Positions 4,394 through 27,588 of a DNA stretch of 28,401 nt are shown piece by piece (the stretch's first letter is position 1; each line of letters opens with the position of its first letter). Source of the stretch: a virus. Below the pieces are notes generated by a model. It saw only the letters and a program-made list of their open reading frames with translations, did no database searches and was not told the DNA's origin. Location of the stretch: positions 1 through 28,401 of the IMG/VR virus record IMGVR_UViG_3300009509_000084; one strand, 5' to 3'. A program made the position numbers and the translations under genes.

Positions 4394-5143
4394 TTATAGA
4401 AGTTCACATTCATACCAGGCAAGTATTAATGTTGCACGACCATCTTTTATCTCTCCACTTAATCTGACAGCATATATAAAATTTTGTTTGAGCACCCATT
4501 CATTATCAGACCTACTTACTCCTCCTCTCACCTTTCCAGCACCCAAAAGCTCTCTACATAGAATAGTTCCATCGTTTGTAATTGTTGGATTTAGTGTCGC
4601 CTTACCCGCTTCTGGAGTACTCTCAATAGTAAGAATTCCGCTTGTGTTTGCACTATTTCTGTTATGATTATATGCAATAACATCTGTCCCTGTATCAACT
4701 GTTATTGTAGGATCTTCAAGAATTTCAAAGGTAGCTTCAGCTGTATTATCTACAGTGAAGAATAAATGTATCCAATCTGTAGTATCTGGCGTTTGAAATG
4801 CAATAATCAAATTTTCACCTACACCAAAATCGGAGTCAACCGCACATATACTATAGAACTCGCCTTCGTGAATCTCATGATGTGCTTTTAAGATTACCTG
4901 CGTCCTGAAATCATCTGAATAATTAATCAAGCGAACAATTGCTGCTCTCAATTCCTCTACAGATGCTACTGACGGGGAAGTCACATCTTGATAATCTATT
5001 CTAATAATACGCCCAGAAGCTTCACTTACAAGCACTTCACTATTAACAACATGCACTCCAGTGCTAATTTTATTAAATGAGTTAACCACTCCATCCACCG
5101 TAATTTTGAGCGTTAACCCATCGTTTTCTATTGTAGTAGCCAT
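4394..5143 (-). CDS. Virion structural protein, fibre or decoration type (249 aa)
   Basis: The first third contains VASVEELRAAIVRLINYSDDFR. The second half has the order common to a widespread group of uncharacterised phage virion proteins: VDTGTDVIAYNHNRNSANT, a Gly-rich turn with SRSDNEWVLK, and an end reading RATLILAWYECELL. These are alternating beta strands with no signal or membrane segment. It follows the 263-aa protein with only two bases between them, so both are probably made together as outer parts of the particle. The exact position in the virion cannot be told from sequence. An AGGA about nine bases upstream serves as ribosome binding site. Confidence 0.65.
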   Translation of the reverse strand: MATTIENDGLTLKITVDGVVNSFNKISTGVHVVNSEVLVSEASGRIIRIDYQDVTSPSVASVEELRAAIVRLINYSDDFRTQVILKAHHEIHEGEFYSICAVDSDFGVGENLIIAFQTPDTTDWIHLFFTVDNTAEATFEILEDPTITVDTGTDVIAYNHNRNSANTSGILTIESTPEAGKATLNPTITNDGTILCRELLGAGKVRGGVSRSDNEWVLKQNFIYAVRLSGEIKDGRATLILAWYECELL

Positions 5144-5954: not shown

Positions 5955-8834
5955 TTAGATACTCATCATAGAATAAGGATCATATGGAGCCATTTGGGGC
6001 TGGATTGTTCTCTGTAACAGAGATATCAAGGTTTGTAACTTTTGAGCTGCAACAGCCTCTTGATCAGTTGGAGAGGGAAGAAAATCTCTTAAGCTTTCTA
6101 ATTCCTGTAAAGACATTTGACCTCCTAAGTAAGCATTTTTAATTGCTGTATTTGCTAATGATAATGCAGATCTATATTGAGTGCTTTCGGTAGGTCTTCC
6201 TGTAATTCTTTCCCCAAGTTTACCAAGAGGAGTAGCCAATGGACCAGTTCTTACTCCACCCCTTTGTAACATATCAAGTGCAACTGAGGCAGCATCAGCT
6301 GCTTGAGCAAATTGCTTTTCTCGTGCTCCTAACTCTCCAGGACCATCTCCAGCCCCTAATCCTAGCACTTCCAATATCGTCTTAACATCACTTGGCTCTG
6401 TTCCTTGCTGTAGTAATTGTAATGCTATTGTCCTAGATTGATCTCCACCTGGCATTCCCGCCATCATTCCAGTAGGTAATTCCATTGCAGGAGAAACGTC
6501 AGCCCCAAAGCCAGGTATTTGAGGAATAGGCCCTAGCCCTGCACCAACACCAAACGCTGGGGGTGCCCCCATTCCACCTACAGCTGGAGGAGGTGCTCCC
6601 ATTCCACCTGTAAATAGTTGAGCTCCTAAAACTGGAGCTAGTTGCTGCCCAATTGGAAGCAACCGTTGTCCTAACTGTGCCATAGCTCTTGATCCTAAAA
6701 TATTTTGTAAAGCAGGAGGAACTCCAATCGTTGGAAGCTGTCTTCTTCCTATACTCTCCAACGCTCGTGCTGCTAATGCTTCTCCTCCAGTTAAAACCGG
6801 CTCTGGTAAAACTCTCCCTAAAGTTCCTCCAAGAAATGTCCTGCCAGCGAATGCAGTCGTTCCACGTGCTCTTCGTAGAGCATTCTTAGCATGACCTCTC
6901 TTTATATATTCCATTAAAGGCGCGAGCTTCTTATTTACAGCTGTATACCCAGGAATATTTTTTCTCATATCCTTCAAAATAGCCTTTTCAACCGCTCGCA
7001 GTGCTTCTGCCTTTGCACTTGTAAGTTGTTCCCCAGTTAATTTATAAATATCATTTCGTATAGTAGCTAAAAGTGCTTGCTTTTCTGTACCTGAAATAGT
7101 TGGAGCTCCTAATTGTGCTATCATCTTTTCTCCAGTTTTTTCAGAAACTGTAACTGGAATTCCTTGTCTTTCAATTAACCTTATGACTCCAGCAACATCA
7201 GGGTCAACTGCCTTACCCCTAAATGGAATTTTCAGAACATTCAAGTCTGTCTGAATATCCTTTGCAAAATCAAGTCTAGGCTGGTTATAATTTGCCTGGT
7301 TTATGAGCCGTTGCCTTTCTCTACCTAAATTCCCAACTGTTTGATCAACTCTATTAATCGTTCCACTTGTACTAACAATAGCTTCTCCTTCATCTTCCAA
7401 AACATCGATAACTCGATTATATAAACGCCTATTCTCCGCAGGATTTGGAAATCTCACCGTAGGCTCTGCAGTAAGAATATCAACTTTTATATCACGTCCT
7501 AATCTACGAAATCGATTCTTCCATGTAGGATCTACACGATCTAAAAGAAATGCTGCAGGTTCACTTAAGACTTCATCTCCAGATCGTGCCAATTCCTGTA
7601 TCCATGTCTTATCCGCTGTAGTTAATTGTCTTTTTGCTGATAGCTGTTGTAATCTATCCATTTCCCAAGTTGTAGGACCTGTTATTCTTCTGAATTCCCT
7701 TACCTGGGGAACAACACGCTCCTCTGGGATCATAGCCCTTTCAAGTCTTGTAGGAGGGGCTCCCACTCTTGTTGCTTTATAAAATTCTTCCAGATTTCTT
7801 CCAGCACTATTGACCCGATCTTGTACCATACGGTCTGTAATCTTTGATGCTTCATACTCTCCTTTGACAGCTTTTCCTAACATTCCCTCAGAAATCCCAG
7901 GAGTCCCTCGCTTGATTCCGGCTTCGATTTGTTCCCGCGTTAAAGTAGTCTTTGGCAGTGGATCTACTAATCCAAGTTCTCTTGCCAGAGTTGGTTGTTT
8001 TCTTATAAAGTAACTCTGTTGTGCATTTGTTAACCCCAATCTCTTATCACTAAATGCTCTTAAAGCACCCTTCTCGAATTCAGAAGTAGTTCTAGATTGC
8101 CGAATAATAGGAGTAAATTCCTCCACATTGGCTGGCATAAGTTCTGGTTCAACCCCAGGTACAGCCGGTGCAGCTGGCGTAATGCGCTCTGGAACTTCTA
8201 ATGGAGCTTCTGGAACAATTTCCTCGACTCTTGGTGCTCTTGCACCTCGCAATCGCCCTGCTAACCTTCCTAGCCCATAAACTGCAGCACCACCAAGACC
8301 GCCTCCTAATGCTCCCATTCCCAATCCTCCCAGTACACTCATAGGATCTTCCCATTCAGCTTGAGCAAGTCCAGTAACAGCCCCAGGAACCATTCCTGTA
8401 GCAATTGCACTTTGAAGCGGAGTTAATGCTCTTCCTGCAACTGAAGTTATTGGAGCCGTAGGAGCTACTGTTGCAGCAATTGCAAGCATATCCTTTATAG
8501 TCTCCCCAAGAGGATCTCCATATTGAAATTCTTGCCACTTTTCAGGTTTCATAATAAGTGGCTTATATCCCAACGCAGCTTCTGGACCTCTTAATGTAGC
8601 AGCAGTGTATCCCAAACTCTCAATAGCCTTTTGAGGGAATTCAACAAAAGGAGTAATAAAACTCTTTGCCATTCCACCTAATGTTCCTAGAAGACCTCCA
8701 CCACGAGGTTGCTGTGGTTGGAGAAGCTGTGCTTGAGGAAGCCCTTGGGCTTGACCTCCAACACCACGAGCCATTTGATATGGCCTACCGGATTGAATAT
8801 ATGCCCTTGCGGCTTCACCACGCAATATTGCCAT
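5955..8834 (-). CDS. Large internal virion (ejection) protein (959 aa)
   Basis: This is the longest gene of the window. The first 200 residues are Gly/Ala-rich and include a membrane-like Gly-zipper around residues 165-195 (LGGLGMGALGGGLGGAAVYG). The centre (about 240-640) is helical and charged (many Arg, Glu, Gln). A second Gly/Met/Pro-rich region lies around 725-775 with repeated GGMGAPP, then a helical end. It has no enzyme motif that I can see. Size, composition and position after three smaller Ala/Gln-rich proteins resemble the internal proteins that short-tailed phages eject ahead of their DNA to span the cell envelope. The function is inferred from these traits, not from a family match. 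A GGAG lies about ten bases before the ATG. Confidence 0.55.
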   Translation of the reverse strand: MAILRGEAARAYIQSGRPYQMARGVGGQAQGLPQAQLLQPQQPRGGGLLGTLGGMAKSFITPFVEFPQKAIESLGYTAATLRGPEAALGYKPLIMKPEKWQEFQYGDPLGETIKDMLAIAATVAPTAPITSVAGRALTPLQSAIATGMVPGAVTGLAQAEWEDPMSVLGGLGMGALGGGLGGAAVYGLGRLAGRLRGARAPRVEEIVPEAPLEVPERITPAAPAVPGVEPELMPANVEEFTPIIRQSRTTSEFEKGALRAFSDKRLGLTNAQQSYFIRKQPTLARELGLVDPLPKTTLTREQIEAGIKRGTPGISEGMLGKAVKGEYEASKITDRMVQDRVNSAGRNLEEFYKATRVGAPPTRLERAMIPEERVVPQVREFRRITGPTTWEMDRLQQLSAKRQLTTADKTWIQELARSGDEVLSEPAAFLLDRVDPTWKNRFRRLGRDIKVDILTAEPTVRFPNPAENRRLYNRVIDVLEDEGEAIVSTSGTINRVDQTVGNLGRERQRLINQANYNQPRLDFAKDIQTDLNVLKIPFRGKAVDPDVAGVIRLIERQGIPVTVSEKTGEKMIAQLGAPTISGTEKQALLATIRNDIYKLTGEQLTSAKAEALRAVEKAILKDMRKNIPGYTAVNKKLAPLMEYIKRGHAKNALRRARGTTAFAGRTFLGGTLGRVLPEPVLTGGEALAARALESIGRRQLPTIGVPPALQNILGSRAMAQLGQRLLPIGQQLAPVLGAQLFTGGMGAPPPAVGGMGAPPAFGVGAGLGPIPQIPGFGADVSPAMELPTGMMAGMPGGDQSRTIALQLLQQGTEPSDVKTILEVLGLGAGDGPGELGAREKQFAQAADAASVALDMLQRGGVRTGPLATPLGKLGERITGRPTESTQYRSALSLANTAIKNAYLGGQMSLQELESLRDFLPSPTDQEAVAAQKLQTLISLLQRTIQPQMAPYDPYSMMSI

Positions 8835-19432: not shown

Positions 19433-20449
19433 TTATCCACTATAGACTGAGTTGTCACCCTTTGAGAGAGCCGCTGGATACCATGCAGTATTACCCCAGG
19501 TGTAATGATCATAAGCGAATTTAATAAGAGATTCATTTCTCTTATTAATCTCATCATCATAATTTGGATAACCAGGACCTGAGTATACTTTAAAGTACCG
19601 CTTGCACATATCCACATCAATGATGCCCCACATTGTATCCCAGTAGTTTGAGCTAGATGTCTTAGCAACTGTTGTTTCACCTGCTTGTACAGCTGCTTCA
19701 TATGAAAGCCAATCGACTACAAGAACGTCGAACTTGTCTCCCTTGCGGAAGTAGTTCTCGTCATTTACATCGGTACCTGGCTTTCCATCCGGCCCTTCTA
19801 CTCCTGCGATTTGAAATGCTTCTTCGCGCAGGTAGGGACCAACTATGATACATTTGTTCTTTCCAGGACTAGAAACATTCATAAGATTTCCCTGGTTTGA
19901 AACAACTGAAATCATTTGATCTTGAAGATCAAGAGCATTATTGTAAGTAAGCGGCCTTTGAACTCCATCTGGGAATGTATTTGCTTGTGCAGGCCCTTGA
20001 TCCTTTCGAGGATGCGAAGGACTTACAAATGGCTTGGAGTCCCCATAAACTATGAGTGGGTTCCAAGCATTTCTGAACATGCCCCAGATGTTTAGCTCTC
20101 GGCTATATCGTGCTGCCCTTGGCAAGTCACGAGCCATTTCTTCAACAGTATCTGTTTGATCTGTATCCCATAAAAGCTTGGAGAAAACTGTTTGCTTTCT
20201 GTAGATCTTTCGCTCATAGGAGTACTTATAACCCTCTAATTGCTCATCTTCAACAGCATTACCTAGTTCTCCAACTTCTTCCATAGGATTGAGACCGGCT
20301 CGAGTTACCTCATTAAATTGAAGCCTACCTGTTACGCGTTCCTTGAAAATAGAGGTGTAAACACCTATTGGTAACAGATCTTCCTCATCTTTAATGTAGG
20401 CATCAATTTCAGGTTTCCATGTCTGCCACTGGCCTACTGTCTCTGCCAT
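19433..20449 (-). CDS. Major capsid protein, HK97 fold (338 aa)
   Basis: The protein has no delta domain, in keeping with a separate scaffold gene. Residues 30-60 form an extended arm (VYTSIFKERVTGRLQFNEVT). Residues about 74-128 match the long spine-helix region with LPRAARYSRELNIWGMFRNA, followed by the loop GDSKPFVSPSHPRKDQG (137-151), equivalent to the G-x-LFSxxHP stretch of gpT-type capsid proteins. The DLQDQMISVVSNQG helix and CIIVGPYLREEAFQI follow in the right order, and the C-terminus has FKVYSGPGYPNYDD. It builds the icosahedral shell around the scaffold. It lies 26 bp after the 225-aa protein, without a visible ribosome binding site. Confidence 0.85.
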   Translation of the reverse strand: MAETVGQWQTWKPEIDAYIKDEEDLLPIGVYTSIFKERVTGRLQFNEVTRAGLNPMEEVGELGNAVEDEQLEGYKYSYERKIYRKQTVFSKLLWDTDQTDTVEEMARDLPRAARYSRELNIWGMFRNAWNPLIVYGDSKPFVSPSHPRKDQGPAQANTFPDGVQRPLTYNNALDLQDQMISVVSNQGNLMNVSSPGKNKCIIVGPYLREEAFQIAGVEGPDGKPGTDVNDENYFRKGDKFDVLVVDWLSYEAAVQAGETTVAKTSSSNYWDTMWGIIDVDMCKRYFKVYSGPGYPNYDDEINKRNESLIKFAYDHYTWGNTAWYPAALSKGDNSVYSG

Positions 20450-21177: not shown

Positions 21178-21200
21178 TAAGACGTCATGATTACGTCTTA
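21178..21200 (-). other. 8-bp stem-loop upstream of the 225-aa gene
   Basis: TAAGACGT (21178-21185) and ACGTCTTA (21193-21200) pair perfectly around a seven-base loop. On the minus strand AT-rich sequence (ATATATTATTTATTATC) follows. This could be a weak terminator after scaffold, an operator (a TTGACT overlaps its upstream edge), or an RNA stabiliser of the capsid mRNA. A shorter 13-bp odd palindrome (AGTCCATTGGACT, 21218-21230) lies just before it. Confidence 0.6.
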
Positions 21201-21245: not shown

Positions 21246-22175
21246 TTAAGAAGGTTGATTCTGAATCTCCCGCGCATAGCGTTCTGCCACCTTTGGGTTA
21301 TTCGCTTTCAATCGATCGTATGTTTCCTTTTGAGACCTTGTCATTGGTACAGTTTGTGGTCCAGTTCGTACTTGTACAGATCCAGACAGGCCACTTGTCG
21401 TACCAGTACCTCCCAGTAATACTCCTTGTCGGCCTTTTATCTCACCTTTTTCTTCTGCTTGTTTAATCTGTTGCTCACGATTCTCCGGTAGAGAATTATA
21501 TGCAAGTTCAAATAGATTATCAGCAGTATAATGCGGATAATAAGCCTTTAGAGTTGCTGCAACTGCTGCAATGCGCTGCCATTGGTGCGCTTTCTCCTGC
21601 TTCTTTTCATCAGTATCCAAATATCTCAAATCAAATTCTGGATGATTCTTTACAAAGGATTTCCAACCCTCTCGATCTTCAATCCTCTGATCAATTACCT
21701 GAGCTACTTGAGCAGGACTTATTGCAGGCTGTTGAGGAGCAACTACCTCCTGTTGAGTAGTAGCCTGTTGAGTAGACGTCTGTTGAGACTGAGCGCTTCC
21801 ATAAAGCTGTTCATGAGTCCCAGGATCTTCAATGCCATCTGCAAGGATTCCCTGTCTCCATTCCTCGTAGAGTTCGGGATTTTTAGCAAATACCGGATTC
21901 ATACGACGTAAAACAGCTTCCTGTTGGCGTCTCAAGATATCATAGTCGTCACGTAACTGTTGATTTCGTTTATCAACAATACTAACTTTATCGGCTAGAG
22001 CCTTCTTATCTAAGTCTTCCTTTGTTGGCTCATCTTCCTCCTTGGGGGATTCACCTATGGTGACTTCAGTCTTTTCTTCAGCTTTCTCTGCACCATCTTG
22101 AGAGGCTGCGACTTCGACTTCCTCAGCTTGCTTTCCTTCATCAGAGGCATTCTGAGGAACGTTCTTGTCTGGCAT
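21246..22175 (-). CDS. Scaffold protein (309 aa)
   Basis: The first 60 residues are strongly acidic (EEVEVAASQDGAEKAEEKTE and more). A helical part follows (about 60-95, DKRNQQLRDDYDILRRQQEA), then a Gln/Thr/Ala/Ser-rich linker around 127-155 (SAQSQQTSTQQATTQQEVV), a second helical part, and a basic end (MTRSQKETYDRLKANNPKVA). Acidic low-complexity protein directly before capsid genes is the hallmark of phage scaffolds, which guide capsid assembly and then leave or are cut. It is the first gene after the structured leader at 22204-22287. No ribosome binding site is visible before the ATG, so leader folding may control its translation. Confidence 0.75.
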   Translation of the reverse strand: MPDKNVPQNASDEGKQAEEVEVAASQDGAEKAEEKTEVTIGESPKEEDEPTKEDLDKKALADKVSIVDKRNQQLRDDYDILRRQQEAVLRRMNPVFAKNPELYEEWRQGILADGIEDPGTHEQLYGSAQSQQTSTQQATTQQEVVAPQQPAISPAQVAQVIDQRIEDREGWKSFVKNHPEFDLRYLDTDEKKQEKAHQWQRIAAVAATLKAYYPHYTADNLFELAYNSLPENREQQIKQAEEKGEIKGRQGVLLGGTGTTSGLSGSVQVRTGPQTVPMTRSQKETYDRLKANNPKVAERYAREIQNQPS

Positions 22176-22203
22176 ATAGAGTTTTTAAAAGCTTAATAAC
22201 ATT

Positions 22204-22287
22204 TTGCAGGTCACAAAACATAGAGGTCTCCATTAATTTTGCAACCTGCAATATGCTATCAAGTGCAAAACCAATAGAAACCTCTAT
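22204..22287 (-). ncRNA. Structured 5' leader of the scaffold/capsid operon
   Basis: On the minus strand 22287-22264 pairs with 22243-22220 over 24 consecutive positions without a gap: 20 Watson-Crick pairs and four G-U pairs. The outer arm is ATAGAGGT / ACCTCTAT and the inner arm TTTTGCA / TGCAAAA. The 20-base loop contains TTGCAGGT (22251-22244), which pairs perfectly with ACCTGCAA (22211-22204) just 3' of the hairpin. Together these form an H-type pseudoknot. The hairpin begins at the start site predicted from the promoter at 22293-22322. The scaffold ATG lies 29 bases after the last pair. All four wobbles are allowed only in minus-strand RNA, which argues for function as RNA. Confidence 0.7.
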
Positions 22288-22292
22288 ACTTT

Positions 22293-22322
22293 ACGATAGC
22301 ATACTACATATTGAATTGTCAA
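22293..22322 (-). promoter_or_regulatory. Promoter of the scaffold/capsid operon
   Basis: A perfect TTGACA (-35, 22317-22322), an 18-bp spacer ending in TGC, and a TATCGT (-10, 22293-22298) form an extended -10 promoter (TGnTATnnT). The -35 overlaps the stop codon of the upstream gene. The 9-bp arm GATAGCATA (22295-22303) covers the -10 and has an exact reverse complement at 22252-22260, which could be an operator pair. A second promoter with the same layout lies at 26232-26261. Confidence 0.65.
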
Positions 22323-22588
22323 ATTTTACCCAATCCCTCAAGTTTCTTACCTGATTGTTTACTTTTTTTCTCTATTCTAATATCCTTTAATATCTCGTTT
22401 GCCTTCTTCTTTTGATCATCCGTTGCTTCAAATACATCAATGAATGGAAAAACACCAAAGGGCGTATACTTCATCACTGCAGTAAGTGCCATATTATACT
22501 TCTTCACCCCTTTCGCCCAAAATATCCCATACTCTTTTACAACTTCCTCTGCTATTTGTCTAAGCTTTTCCTCTTTTTTGTCGTCCAT
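22319..22588 (-). CDS. Hypothetical helical basic protein (89 aa)
   Basis: The protein starts MDDKKEEKLRQIAEEVVKEY and continues GIFWAKGVKKYNMALTAVMK, a helical plan with an aromatic middle (YTPFGVFPFIDVFEA), then a Lys-rich end. It overlaps the preceding 99-aa gene by 29 bp and ends in the -35 box of the next operon. It may interact with portal or scaffold by location. No family recognised. Confidence 0.6.
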   Translation of the reverse strand: MDDKKEEKLRQIAEEVVKEYGIFWAKGVKKYNMALTAVMKYTPFGVFPFIDVFEATDDQKKKANEILKDIRIEKKSKQSGKKLEGLGKI

Positions 22589-22859
22589 TGGCTAATAACT
22601 TCTTAGCTAAATTAGGAATATTTAAAATTGACCTAAATGTCTTAAATCGTTCTGATAATTTAACAAAGTCCACACCTTCTAATTTTCCTTCAAGTAATGC
22701 ATCTCGTGAATAAATTAATTCCCCTTGCATAATAATATCACGCAGAATCTTATATGAATCCTGGTTCTCCCAGGCAACTAATTCTCTTAATTCATCCATT
22801 TTCAACTCATTTAATGGACTTTTCCTTCCTATTGTTTTTGTCTCTTTATAATCTTTCAT
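22560..22859 (-). CDS. Hypothetical protein (99 aa)
   Basis: The ATG overlaps the portal stop (ATGA), so translation is coupled. The protein begins KDYKETKTIGRKSPLNELKM. Its middle, DELRELVAWENQDSYKILRD, contains a helical Leu/Trp surface, and the C-terminus is basic (LLANGRQKRGKA). Small genes after a portal often encode head-assembly helpers. Nothing more can be said. Confidence 0.6.
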   Translation of the reverse strand: MKDYKETKTIGRKSPLNELKMDELRELVAWENQDSYKILRDIIMQGELIYSRDALLEGKLEGVDFVKLSERFKTFRSILNIPNLAKKLLANGRQKRGKA

Positions 22860-25276
22860 ATTACTCCTGGAGGCATAGCCCCAGCACCTGGCATTGGTCC
22901 AGCTTGAGCTAATCCAGTCTCCATCATAGCAGGAGGAATAGTTTCTCCCATTGGCATTGGTCCACCTGGACCAGGTAAGCCTGGTGGAGCTGGCGGAGGT
23001 GCCTGTTGCTGGCCCTCTTGAATTGTTAATGGAATTGCTTGTGTTTTCGGTGCATCATCTTTAGCAAGATGTCTCTCCAATAATCCAACTGCAGTAGTTA
23101 TCTTAGTTACTCGTGCTTGATGTTCAACATCTTGACCTAAGAACTCTCCCATTGGACCTTGTACCGCTATTAACTGATCCTTTTCCTTTCTTAACGAATC
23201 TAATAATTCTCTATGATGATACTTATGCTTTATACTCTCCCCAGGAATACCAGGGACTTCCTCTCCAGCAAGCATAGCCTTCTCTTGCTCAATTGCGTGT
23301 TCAACTTCTTCTTGAGTTGATTCATCTTGTAATTCTTCAACTATTCTTGGACTTAATCCATTAATCTCTACATACTCTCGTATGAGATGAGATACACCAG
23401 GCATTGTCAATAGTTGTTCATTTGAGAGTAATGGCAATAATACAGCCATTGCTTTGTCAACTTGCTCGACTTTTAATCCATGACTTCTTGGAACTAATGA
23501 ATCTGAGTCTATTTGCACATCCACATCACCAACAAGATCTAGATACTCGTCCTCAATAGTAAAGTATCCATAATCCTTTATTCTCTCTTCAATTAACTCT
23601 CCAGTTTCAAAATCATACATAATCTGTACACCCTCTGTTCTTACTGTTGGTCTTTTTTGAACAACTTCTCCATCAATTACTTCCTCTATATAACTTTGAG
23701 GCATCATTTGCTGCCTTATTCTAATTCGCTGTCTCACAGAATCTTTCCAGCCTTCTCCCCAGTTCTTCATTGCTTTCTTAACCATTTTTAGTGTGCTCTC
23801 CATTGCAAGAATATGCGTTCTTACTGCTTCTCCTGGCTTTGGAACTGAATATGCAAGTGGATTAATTCCTGAAGTCATGATTGCATCTTCTCTTAATGTA
23901 TCTCGTAATCTGTACGCTTCTATATTTACTCCAGGACTATCTAACCATCTAATATTATCCGGCCCAACGCTTCCACCTACTTCTACCTTAAGACCAGGCT
24001 CAACATACTCCCAACCTAAATCAATATCTTGAAAGACATCAGTATTGATAAATAATGGTCGATTGATATTGATCTTTTGTTGGTCAAGGAGCATATTTCG
24101 AGTTGTCTCATCTTCTGCCACTTGATTCTCAAGCATTACTCCTAAACCAGCTCCATAGAAGTAATTCTTCAATTCATAAAAGATATGTCGTGAAAATGGA
24201 AGTTCCTTATGGTTATATGGAAGAGGTCCATCTCGAATTAAAACATCATTCGCAATAATAATATATTTGTCTGTTTGCTTATTATAATATCGAATGAGCT
24301 CGACTTTATTTCCACTTACATCTCGAGGAGCCTTAAAGAACGGATCACTTCCTTCATACATTTGCTCTGAGTTCGTTGCACTTTCTACCTTATCTATATT
24401 CCCCTTTATGATCCATGGGTCTTGAGCATTCTTAAACTCGGCTCTAAACTGTTCAACAGATGGTATTTGTCTCCATACAATATCAGCTGCTTCGTAAGCA
24501 GGACCTCTCAGTATACGGGCATCTGGATCTACAAAGATCTCAAATATGTCAGTTGGAACGTATACACAACGATTACATTCAACTATCTCTTCTTTCTTCA
24601 CTAATGGTCGTTGTTCTTTAATAATACGCTCTTTGATATGTTCCGTTTCTTCTTCACTTTCTTTTCGTGCCCGTTCATATTCCTTTCCAGCTTGTTCTGG
24701 ACTTAAAACAATATTCACTGTTCTGGTTTTCTTCATCCATCCATTATATGGAATTGATGTTCCTCGTACAGCCATCTCAAATGCTGTTGTTGCTTTATAT
24801 CTATCCGCATCAGCTCTACTCTCCCAATCATCCTCAATATATCGCATGAGTTTTACTTTCGCTTTATCTTGCTCTTCAGTTGGAGTAAATATAACACCCA
24901 TCTTATTCTCTTGAAACTCTGCTAGAAACGCTTGTACTGTTGCAAAGACGAATGGAGATTTCAGATTGCTCTGATTTAATAAATACTCACGCCACATCAT
25001 GTATATCTTGTCATCCATATTCCAACGATCGCTCCAATTGGTGCCAGTTAACGATCCATCTTCAATAACAAGATCTCGCTCTGCAGCAACTGAGGTTTCT
25101 TCTGAAGGAATTGCCCATGGACACGATGTCCTACGAGCTGCGGACATAATTCTAACTCGCGTTCTAATATCTTTTACTAAATCATATTCTTTCTTACTTG
25201 TCCATTTACCTTTATACTTCTTATAATCCGTATCATCCCATGTTTGAGTTACACCTTTTTTCCCAAGTTTAGCCAT
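22856..25276 (-). CDS. Portal protein (806 aa)
   Basis: At 806 aa the protein fits the large portals of short-tailed phages. Residues about 50-230 form the early clip/wing region (MDDKIYMMWREYLLNQSNLK). A core helix-loop at about 365-405 contains YFYGAGLGVMLENQVAEDET, the FxGxG...E.....E-type stretch that precedes the crown or stem helices in P22-like portals, followed by QQKININRPLFINTD. The end, from about residue 740, is Pro/Gly/Met-rich (PPPAPPGLPGPGGPMPMGET). It forms the dodecameric DNA gate at one capsid vertex and binds terminase. Order terminase, accessory genes, portal, scaffold, capsid supports the call. It overlaps the zinc-ribbon gene by eight bases. Confidence 0.8.
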   Translation of the reverse strand: MAKLGKKGVTQTWDDTDYKKYKGKWTSKKEYDLVKDIRTRVRIMSAARRTSCPWAIPSEETSVAAERDLVIEDGSLTGTNWSDRWNMDDKIYMMWREYLLNQSNLKSPFVFATVQAFLAEFQENKMGVIFTPTEEQDKAKVKLMRYIEDDWESRADADRYKATTAFEMAVRGTSIPYNGWMKKTRTVNIVLSPEQAGKEYERARKESEEETEHIKERIIKEQRPLVKKEEIVECNRCVYVPTDIFEIFVDPDARILRGPAYEAADIVWRQIPSVEQFRAEFKNAQDPWIIKGNIDKVESATNSEQMYEGSDPFFKAPRDVSGNKVELIRYYNKQTDKYIIIANDVLIRDGPLPYNHKELPFSRHIFYELKNYFYGAGLGVMLENQVAEDETTRNMLLDQQKININRPLFINTDVFQDIDLGWEYVEPGLKVEVGGSVGPDNIRWLDSPGVNIEAYRLRDTLREDAIMTSGINPLAYSVPKPGEAVRTHILAMESTLKMVKKAMKNWGEGWKDSVRQRIRIRQQMMPQSYIEEVIDGEVVQKRPTVRTEGVQIMYDFETGELIEERIKDYGYFTIEDEYLDLVGDVDVQIDSDSLVPRSHGLKVEQVDKAMAVLLPLLSNEQLLTMPGVSHLIREYVEINGLSPRIVEELQDESTQEEVEHAIEQEKAMLAGEEVPGIPGESIKHKYHHRELLDSLRKEKDQLIAVQGPMGEFLGQDVEHQARVTKITTAVGLLERHLAKDDAPKTQAIPLTIQEGQQQAPPPAPPGLPGPGGPMPMGETIPPAMMETGLAQAGPMPGAGAMPPGVI

Positions 25277-26262: not shown

Positions 26263-27588
26263 CTAGTAACCAGTTAATGGATTTATAACTCTACGACTGG
26301 ATCGACTATGTTGACTTCTTACTTGTTCCTTTTGCTTTGTATGATGCAATATAATATATCGAATTGCATCCATTCCATGATCATAAGCCTTTTCTGGCAT
26401 TTCGCGTTCATTTTTATCTTCTCCTCTTTTTTCTTGCCATCGATAACGCTCAAACTCTTTAATCAATTCAACACAATTTGGCCTGATAAATACTCGAGGA
26501 AGATTAGTAATAGGATTTATCTTAAGCCTATCCGCAATTCTATTAATACCACGAAGTACACTTTTATTAGTCTTCTCAACTGCACTGATGTAGAGACGGT
26601 ATCTACGATATTCTTCAATCTCTTGTTGATTAGCACTATCTCCAACAATAAATCTTTGATCATTCTTATATTTCTGACGAAGAGCTAGGATTGCTCCTGC
26701 GTGTTCTGGAATAGGCTTTTGAGTTGCAAAGTACTCATCAAATATCCACCAATTATCATCATCATCAAAATAACTTGCTATAAAGACAGTGGGATTTGTA
26801 TAACCAAAATCCATTCCACACTCCAACTGAAAGTTTCTTGGAACATCGAAGTCCTTGATGTTGATATCTCGATCAAACTCCTTAAAGATAAGTCCGGTAT
26901 GCTTCCTGAAATCAGCACCATACTCTTGCATCACATAATCCTCAGCCTTTTCACTTTTGATTTGTTCTATTTCTTTCTTGCCTACTTCTGTTAAAGTCCA
27001 TGGATTACCACTATCCCATGTCGCTACTCTCCAAGACTTCCAGTCTTTATTTTGAGGTTGGTTATTATTCTGTCCTCGCTCATAAAGATCATAGAAGTGA
27101 TTATATCCCTTTGGCGTTCCAATAAAGATTGCTCGACCTCCTTTATCTGCTAACGCAGGCCGGAGGATATTATTCCAGATCTCATCAAAGTACCTATATT
27201 CAGCAACCTCATCTAGAATAATGACATTTAATCCAGAACCCCGCAAGGTTTCCTTATTCTCTGCTCCCTTAAATTGTAGAAGTGCATTATGATGAAATAA
27301 AATGAGTAATTCACTATCATTCTTCTTTACATAACTCCCCTCTGGAAGCAGCTTTCCCATAATGTCTTGCTCTCGCCAATAGACATCCTTTGCTTGCCCA
27401 TATGTAGGACAAATTATCCACACTTTTGCATTAGGAGTTTCCCAACATGTTTGAACAGCTTCCATAAAAGCAAACGTAGACTTGCCTGATCTTCGACCCC
27501 AGACGCATACTTTGAATCTATGAGGATCTGTATGAAGTTCTGCCTGCTTTGGAGTAGGATGATATGGATGCTCAATTATCTTCTGCAT
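26263..27588 (-). CDS. terL: Terminase large subunit
   Basis: All motor and nuclease motifs are visible in the 441-aa protein. Walker A is GRRSGKST (31-38). Walker B is NVIILDEVAE with D126 and catalytic E127. The coupling motif is FIGTPKG (155-161). The RNase H-like nuclease has D260 (CGMDFGYTNP), D317 (FIVGDSAN) and D403/D407 (AYDHGMDAIRY). The protein pumps DNA into the prohead and cuts the concatemer. The architecture resembles PBSX/T4-family terminases (Terminase_6/3 type). AAGGA lies eight bases before the ATG. It overlaps the candidate small terminase gene by 17 bp. The packaging style (cos, pac or other) cannot be told here. Confidence 0.95.
   Translation of the reverse strand: MQKIIEHPYHPTPKQAELHTDPHRFKVCVWGRRSGKSTFAFMEAVQTCWETPNAKVWIICPTYGQAKDVYWREQDIMGKLLPEGSYVKKNDSELLILFHHNALLQFKGAENKETLRGSGLNVIILDEVAEYRYFDEIWNNILRPALADKGGRAIFIGTPKGYNHFYDLYERGQNNNQPQNKDWKSWRVATWDSGNPWTLTEVGKKEIEQIKSEKAEDYVMQEYGADFRKHTGLIFKEFDRDINIKDFDVPRNFQLECGMDFGYTNPTVFIASYFDDDDNWWIFDEYFATQKPIPEHAGAILALRQKYKNDQRFIVGDSANQQEIEEYRRYRLYISAVEKTNKSVLRGINRIADRLKINPITNLPRVFIRPNCVELIKEFERYRWQEKRGEDKNEREMPEKAYDHGMDAIRYIILHHTKQKEQVRSQHSRSSRRVINPLTGY

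Follow-up and report, generated by a model that had tools for sequence, protein, structure and literature searches.

The window, by which we mean the whole stretch of 28,401 bases that we analysed, is the IMG/VR virus record IMGVR_UViG_3300009509_000084, which comes from an uncultured phage. Its minus strand encodes a terminase large subunit (about 26263-27588) and a portal protein (22856-25276), both identified by domain hits, followed by two small genes, including one of 89 amino acids (22319-22588), and then by a 309-amino-acid protein (21246-22175). The same gene block holds a gene for a 225-amino-acid protein and, with a weak domain hit, the capsid protein (19433-20449). A domain search with the 309-amino-acid protein gave no match. 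We consider it to be the presumptive scaffold protein because of its position between portal and capsid and because of distant relatives: it is 22-26% identical to the proteins encoded at the same place in three related phages (L003, L006, and L069). The left end of the record has direct repeats with 21-base spacing (4-150), possibly within a repetitive protein, and two 76-base direct repeats (238-313 and 451-526; 79% identical and 213 bases apart).

The original prediction placed the leader described below upstream of a scaffold/capsid operon. This is doubtful, because the scaffold gene is followed by a terminator-like hairpin and a T run (21178-21200, minus strand), with counterparts 3' of the scaffold genes of L003 (5250-5267) and L069 (about 7217-7245). 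Thus, three of the four related phages have a terminator-like hairpin 3' of the scaffold gene, before the next gene begins; we found none at this place in L006. The scaffold gene may therefore be its own transcription unit in the window phage. These hairpins could also set the ratio of scaffold to capsid protein.

Upstream of the scaffold gene, we confirmed a match to a promoter with an extended -10 element at 22322-22293 on the minus strand (TTGACA-18-TATCGT, with TG preceding the -10). The -35 hexamer (22317..22322) overlaps the stop codon of the 89-amino-acid gene, and the -10 hexamer (22293..22298) predicts a start of transcription near 22287, at the base of a long hairpin. There are 7 such promoter matches in the window and 7.1 are expected by chance. 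The support for this promoter comes from L003, which has TTGACT-18-TACTAT, again with the TG, equally far from its own hairpin (TGCTACTAT), and from the shared pattern TTGAC-N16-TGCTA, which matches exactly once in each of the two genomes. Each match is at the leader, where it borders the upstream gene's stop codon on one side and the hairpin on the other.

At the other end of the leader, the A+U-rich sequence CTTTTAAAAACTCTAT (22176..22191, minus strand) precedes the ATG of the scaffold gene, and TTAAAAACTnnATATG is found at the scaffold start codon in both the window and L003. It is true, as originally stated, that the scaffold gene lacks a ribosome binding site, but this does not set it apart: Shine-Dalgarno sites are rare among the genes of this genome and of its relatives, and the starts are A+U-rich. 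In Bacteroidota likewise, most starts lack a Shine-Dalgarno site, and structure near the start tunes initiation (PMC6847099).

The RNA from this promoter would begin with a hairpin that we call hairpin A. Its 24-nt arms (22264..22287 and 22220..22243, minus strand) pair at 24 of 24 positions, with 20 Watson-Crick pairs, 4 G-U pairs, and no A-C, just as predicted, and they enclose a 20-nt loop (22244..22263). The minus strand of 22150-22300 folds at -45.6 kcal/mol, compared to -29.0 +/- 3.4 kcal/mol for dinucleotide shuffles (z = -4.9), and none of 200 such shuffles folded as well as the leader. Simulated windows matched for composition contained, in 4.26 Mb, 3 stems with 20 or more pairs and no more than one mismatch. 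The earlier reading had missed that if the RNA begins upstream, then stem A reaches 33 unbroken pairs (22296-22264 with 22243-22211). The stem in L003 (26 of 27 positions paired) likewise extends into the -10 region. We also noticed that the promoter spacer (22294-22313) can pair with the loop of A (22242-22261, minus strand) at 19 of 20 positions, which could occur only in read-through RNA; L003 has no spacer-loop counterpart of 16 or more pairs.

Eight bases of the loop of A (22251-22244, TTGCAGGT) are perfectly complementary to 22211-22204 (ACCTGCAA), and the original prediction took this exact match to be the second helix of an H-type pseudoknot. A scan for long stems revealed that these eight pairs, which are all that was seen before, are the middle of a 28-position helix, hairpin B. 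The 5' arm of B (22236..22263, minus strand) comprises the whole loop of A and 8 nt of its 3' arm, and the 3' arm of B (22192..22219, minus strand) includes the 22211-22204 segment. In the window and, separately, in L003, 27 of the 28 positions of B are paired. When we held A fixed and shuffled the downstream sequence 2000 times, the most pairs that we obtained were 16 for the window and 19 for L003. Taken alone, the outer part of B, beyond the pseudoknot core, is also significant (P = 0.0002 in the window and P = 0.002 in L003). This outer part lies in the loop of A (and, in L003, in its stem as well), so an intact A together with a paired core leaves it unable to pair. Since B takes the entire loop of A and part of its stem, A and B are mutually exclusive: they cannot both form fully in one molecule. 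Such a pair of overlapping stems was absent from 4.26 Mb of simulated sequence, and there was no other instance in 0.52 Mb of viral sequence that we fetched, where the sole match (L020) was L003's own record.

A hairpin loop that pairs outside of its hairpin, by 8 bp in the window and 12 bp in L003, is one hallmark of an H-type pseudoknot. However, if all 24 pairs of A are kept, then the 8-base strand must span a helix of about 65 Angstroms (estimated from the rise of A-form RNA). By this geometric estimate, which is not a computation, crossing the full 24-bp stem with 8 nt would be sterically strained and would need some fraying, and on these grounds we disfavour an H-type pseudoknot that keeps all of the 24-bp stem. 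Two exclusive hairpins fit better, because in each phage the pairing of the loop grows to 27 pairs, which A does not allow; the pseudoknot would be at most an intermediate. The same evidence bears on whether the leader is a 5' structure like the operator of phage T4. After the structure, some 40 nt of RNA rich in A and U, including UUAAA and UAAA runs, lead up to the start codon, and L003 folds better as A. But we think this explanation is rather doubtful: it would require the strained crossing, and it leaves unexplained the 27 pairs that the loop helix attains in either phage, given that the outer side could not pair with A intact. Membership in the T4 gene 32 type of operator was rejected because the downstream gene is a presumptive scaffold gene, at the position between portal and capsid, and not the gene for a single-strand-binding protein.

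L003 (IMGVR_UViG_3300038492_000245) has a major capsid protein that is 56% identical to the window's. (L002 and L003 are 99.99% identical over their shared stretch, so we treat them as one example.) The leader of L003 is about as long as the window's and lies in the corresponding gap, between the gene after the portal and the scaffold gene. It folds with z = -7.2 into a long hairpin whose loop pairs, by 12 bases, just downstream. Its architecture is that of the window: an extended -10 promoter, the long hairpin, a loop that is complementary to downstream sequence, and TTAAAAACTnnATATG at the start codon. Yet in their structured parts the two leaders are no more alike than shuffled sequences are, while the DNA of the capsid genes is 69% identical. 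As both hairpins are retained in two phages without similarity of leader sequence, we view the preservation of structure while the sequence was replaced as strong evidence of a function.

The expectation of conservation in related phages was thus borne out in L003, whose helices all recur in a different sequence, but not in the more distant relatives L006 and L069, where we found no two-hairpin leader. The element is not essential to this group of phages and has been gained or lost, since these two lack it. Our independent examples number only two, the window and L003. IMG/VR protein scans with the capsid, 225-amino-acid, and portal proteins (using several alignments) found the gene block only in L002/L003, L006/L007, and L069; L067 and L073-L076 were portal-only or remote loci. 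No relatives were found among GTDB genome contigs or INPHARED phages. A search of IMG/VR for the pattern TTGAC-N16-TGCTA-N92..122-TTAAAAACT gave 44 matches, and only L003 and its twin had a fold like the window's. In Rfam 15, no family matched at or above its gathering cut-off, so we rejected membership in an Rfam family; the sub-threshold matches were hairpin-like and mostly to microRNA precursors. Elements of this kind escape both sequence-based and Rfam searches.

Two other observations about these relatives are worth recording. First, the terminase large subunits of the window (26266-27588, minus strand) and L003 (L020 7702-9066) are only 16% identical, so this protein is uninformative about their relationship; next to 56% identity for the capsid protein, this suggests that a packaging gene was replaced between these phages. 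Second, L006, which lacks the two-hairpin leader, carries palindromic units (GAGGYGATRCCTC) in pairs (4860-4887 and 6648-6675), upstream of both its scaffold gene and its capsid gene.

The leader seems to be maintained as RNA. Across A and B in both phages, the positions that are not Watson-Crick pairs comprise 24 G-U, 1 A-C, and 2 others; this count uses the 33-position form of the window's A and is biased, because G-U was accepted as a pair by the scan and A-C was not. The plus strand of 22150-22300 folds at -32.6 kcal/mol, which is 13 kcal/mol worse than the minus strand and upholds the earlier claim that the pairing has a direction. Across the two phages the opposite strand folds 13-21 kcal/mol worse, and a scan of the opposite strand at the leader found no long stems. 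Judging from these patterns, selection acts on the RNA of one strand. A DNA palindrome was rejected because of the strand bias, and we give hardly any weight to the broader proposal that the locus is a DNA-level palindrome (an operator or a site of recombination or replication) or a quasi-palindrome that arose by chance. In favour of that proposal, quasi-palindromes can come from template switching, and the promoter spacer also pairs with the loop (22313-22294 with 22261-22242). In both phages, though, the G-U bias is on one strand and the other strand folds less well, and the structure was rebuilt with a different sequence in the relative and is unmatched in simulations.

If pseudoknot terms are left out, then A and B have energies of -45.3 and -47.6 kcal/mol in the window, or within about 2 kcal/mol of each other, while A is favoured by about 8 kcal/mol in L003. 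In this model, the resting balance between A and B differs between the two phages and is not conserved. Two mutually exclusive helices, each beyond chance, make the leader RNA plausibly bistable, and we classify it as a putative bistable cis-regulatory RNA leader. Direct paths from A to B have barriers of 37-44 kcal/mol when computed without pseudoknots, by a program that cannot model a loop toehold; the high barrier therefore implies only that such a toehold would be needed.

We also considered whether these stems are a site for RNase III or another nuclease, which would cut the scaffold mRNA free of read-through RNA from upstream or mature its 5' end. Both stems are long double-stranded RNA, with at least 24 pairs each (a site would need about 20 bp or more), and in read-through RNA A extends to 33 pairs, into the -10 region, as does the stem in L003. 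Nevertheless, we view this as unlikely, because the conserved promoter at the base of the hairpin would already provide a free 5' end and because a nuclease site does not need two exclusive hairpins. Less likely again, and in our opinion quite improbable, is a separate small RNA that acts in trans, with the scaffold gene merely downstream. It would have its own promoter and a compact structure, but no terminator separates the leader from the scaffold gene, and the leader and the start region are conserved together. Several other classes were rejected. A transcription attenuator does not fit: the leader contains nothing terminator-like, the window has GUUUUGUG just after A, and L003 lacks a U run at that place. 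Control by a leader peptide was rejected as well: a 30-codon open reading frame (22233-22141, minus strand) that begins within the leader overlaps the scaffold start out of frame, and by our reading L003 has only open reading frames of 7 and 2 codons. Nor is the leader a tRNA or a tmRNA.

We propose that this is a bistable leader RNA belonging to the scaffold gene, and a candidate switch, to which we give a little less than an even chance. Hairpin A would form first, as the RNA is transcribed. The 3' arm of B, as it emerges, would pair with the loop of A as a toehold (8-12 bases) and then displace A. In designed RNAs, loop toeholds do speed strand exchange (PMC6582335). In the A state, the 5' end would be buried in the stem and the roughly 44 nt that precede the start codon would be at least partly free, so that initiation without a Shine-Dalgarno site would be possible; for these reasons we infer that A is the likelier ON state and the long-lived one. 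In the B state, the 5' arm of A would be exposed and the helix would end 17 nt (window) or 14 nt (L003) from the start codon, and translation and the lifetime of the mRNA would be expected to fall. The region from -40 to -21 is paired in B and partly open in A; the start codon itself is sequestered in neither. Folding time or a bound factor, such as the scaffold protein, would set the balance between A and B and limit the output of scaffold protein. The original prediction had the leader protecting the mRNA or controlling translation. Structure at the RNA level in a 5' leader, the conserved promoter, and the architecture of L003 agree with that, but the pseudoknot form in which it was drawn is not supported. 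A metabolite or protein ligand for the leader, which was also suggested, is a guess.

Phages need scaffold protein in a suitable proportion to capsid protein, and to our knowledge little is known about RNA-level sensing of these amounts by phages. A leader with two exclusive folds that are retained without sequence conservation is a concrete and testable candidate. A bolder version is that it represents a new class of RNA switch in phages: a 5' hairpin would offer its apical loop as the toehold for an exclusive second hairpin, and free scaffold protein (or folding time) would use this to stop scaffold synthesis when the supply suffices; this would be a long shot. A review of T4 from 2010 suggested that the gene 32 pseudoknot might be the sole one in viruses to serve translational autoregulation (PMC3014915), which would make a second kind notable.

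Among known systems, autoregulation of the P22 scaffold would share the outcome, namely post-transcriptional control of scaffold synthesis, and we know of no leader element of this shape in P22. The leader of the MS2 maturation protein (PMC6582335, PMC6733600) also precedes a structural gene of a phage, and in it, as we propose for the window's leader, an early local hairpin gives way to another fold. But MS2 is an RNA phage whose cloverleaf leader is timed by delayed folding, whereas the window is from a DNA phage with two long rod-like hairpins, and for L003 the prediction is that the early hairpin is more stable than the later one. The operator pseudoknot of gene 32 in T4 and RB69 (PMC535899, PMC3014915) similarly has a 5' structure with loop pairing, followed by an unstructured A+U-rich stretch with UUAAA runs and then the start codon. 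The pseudoknot component in T4 measures about 28 nt, has short stems, and lies ahead of the gene for a single-strand-binding protein, while the window's leader has stems of 24-28 bp and an exclusive alternative fold and precedes a scaffold gene. The lambda cIII leader (PMC2777011) is a phage mRNA with two conformations that affect translation, helped by the binding of RNase III; the likeness that we draw is in the logic of alternative conformations. Designed RNAs of the riboregulator type (PMC6582335) also use a hairpin loop as a toehold for strand exchange, but they are synthetic and triggered in trans, and we propose that the exchange in the window's leader would occur within one molecule. 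By analogy, then, the layout of this leader resembles that of the T4 gene 32 operator, and its proposed logic resembles that of the MS2 maturation and lambda cIII leaders.
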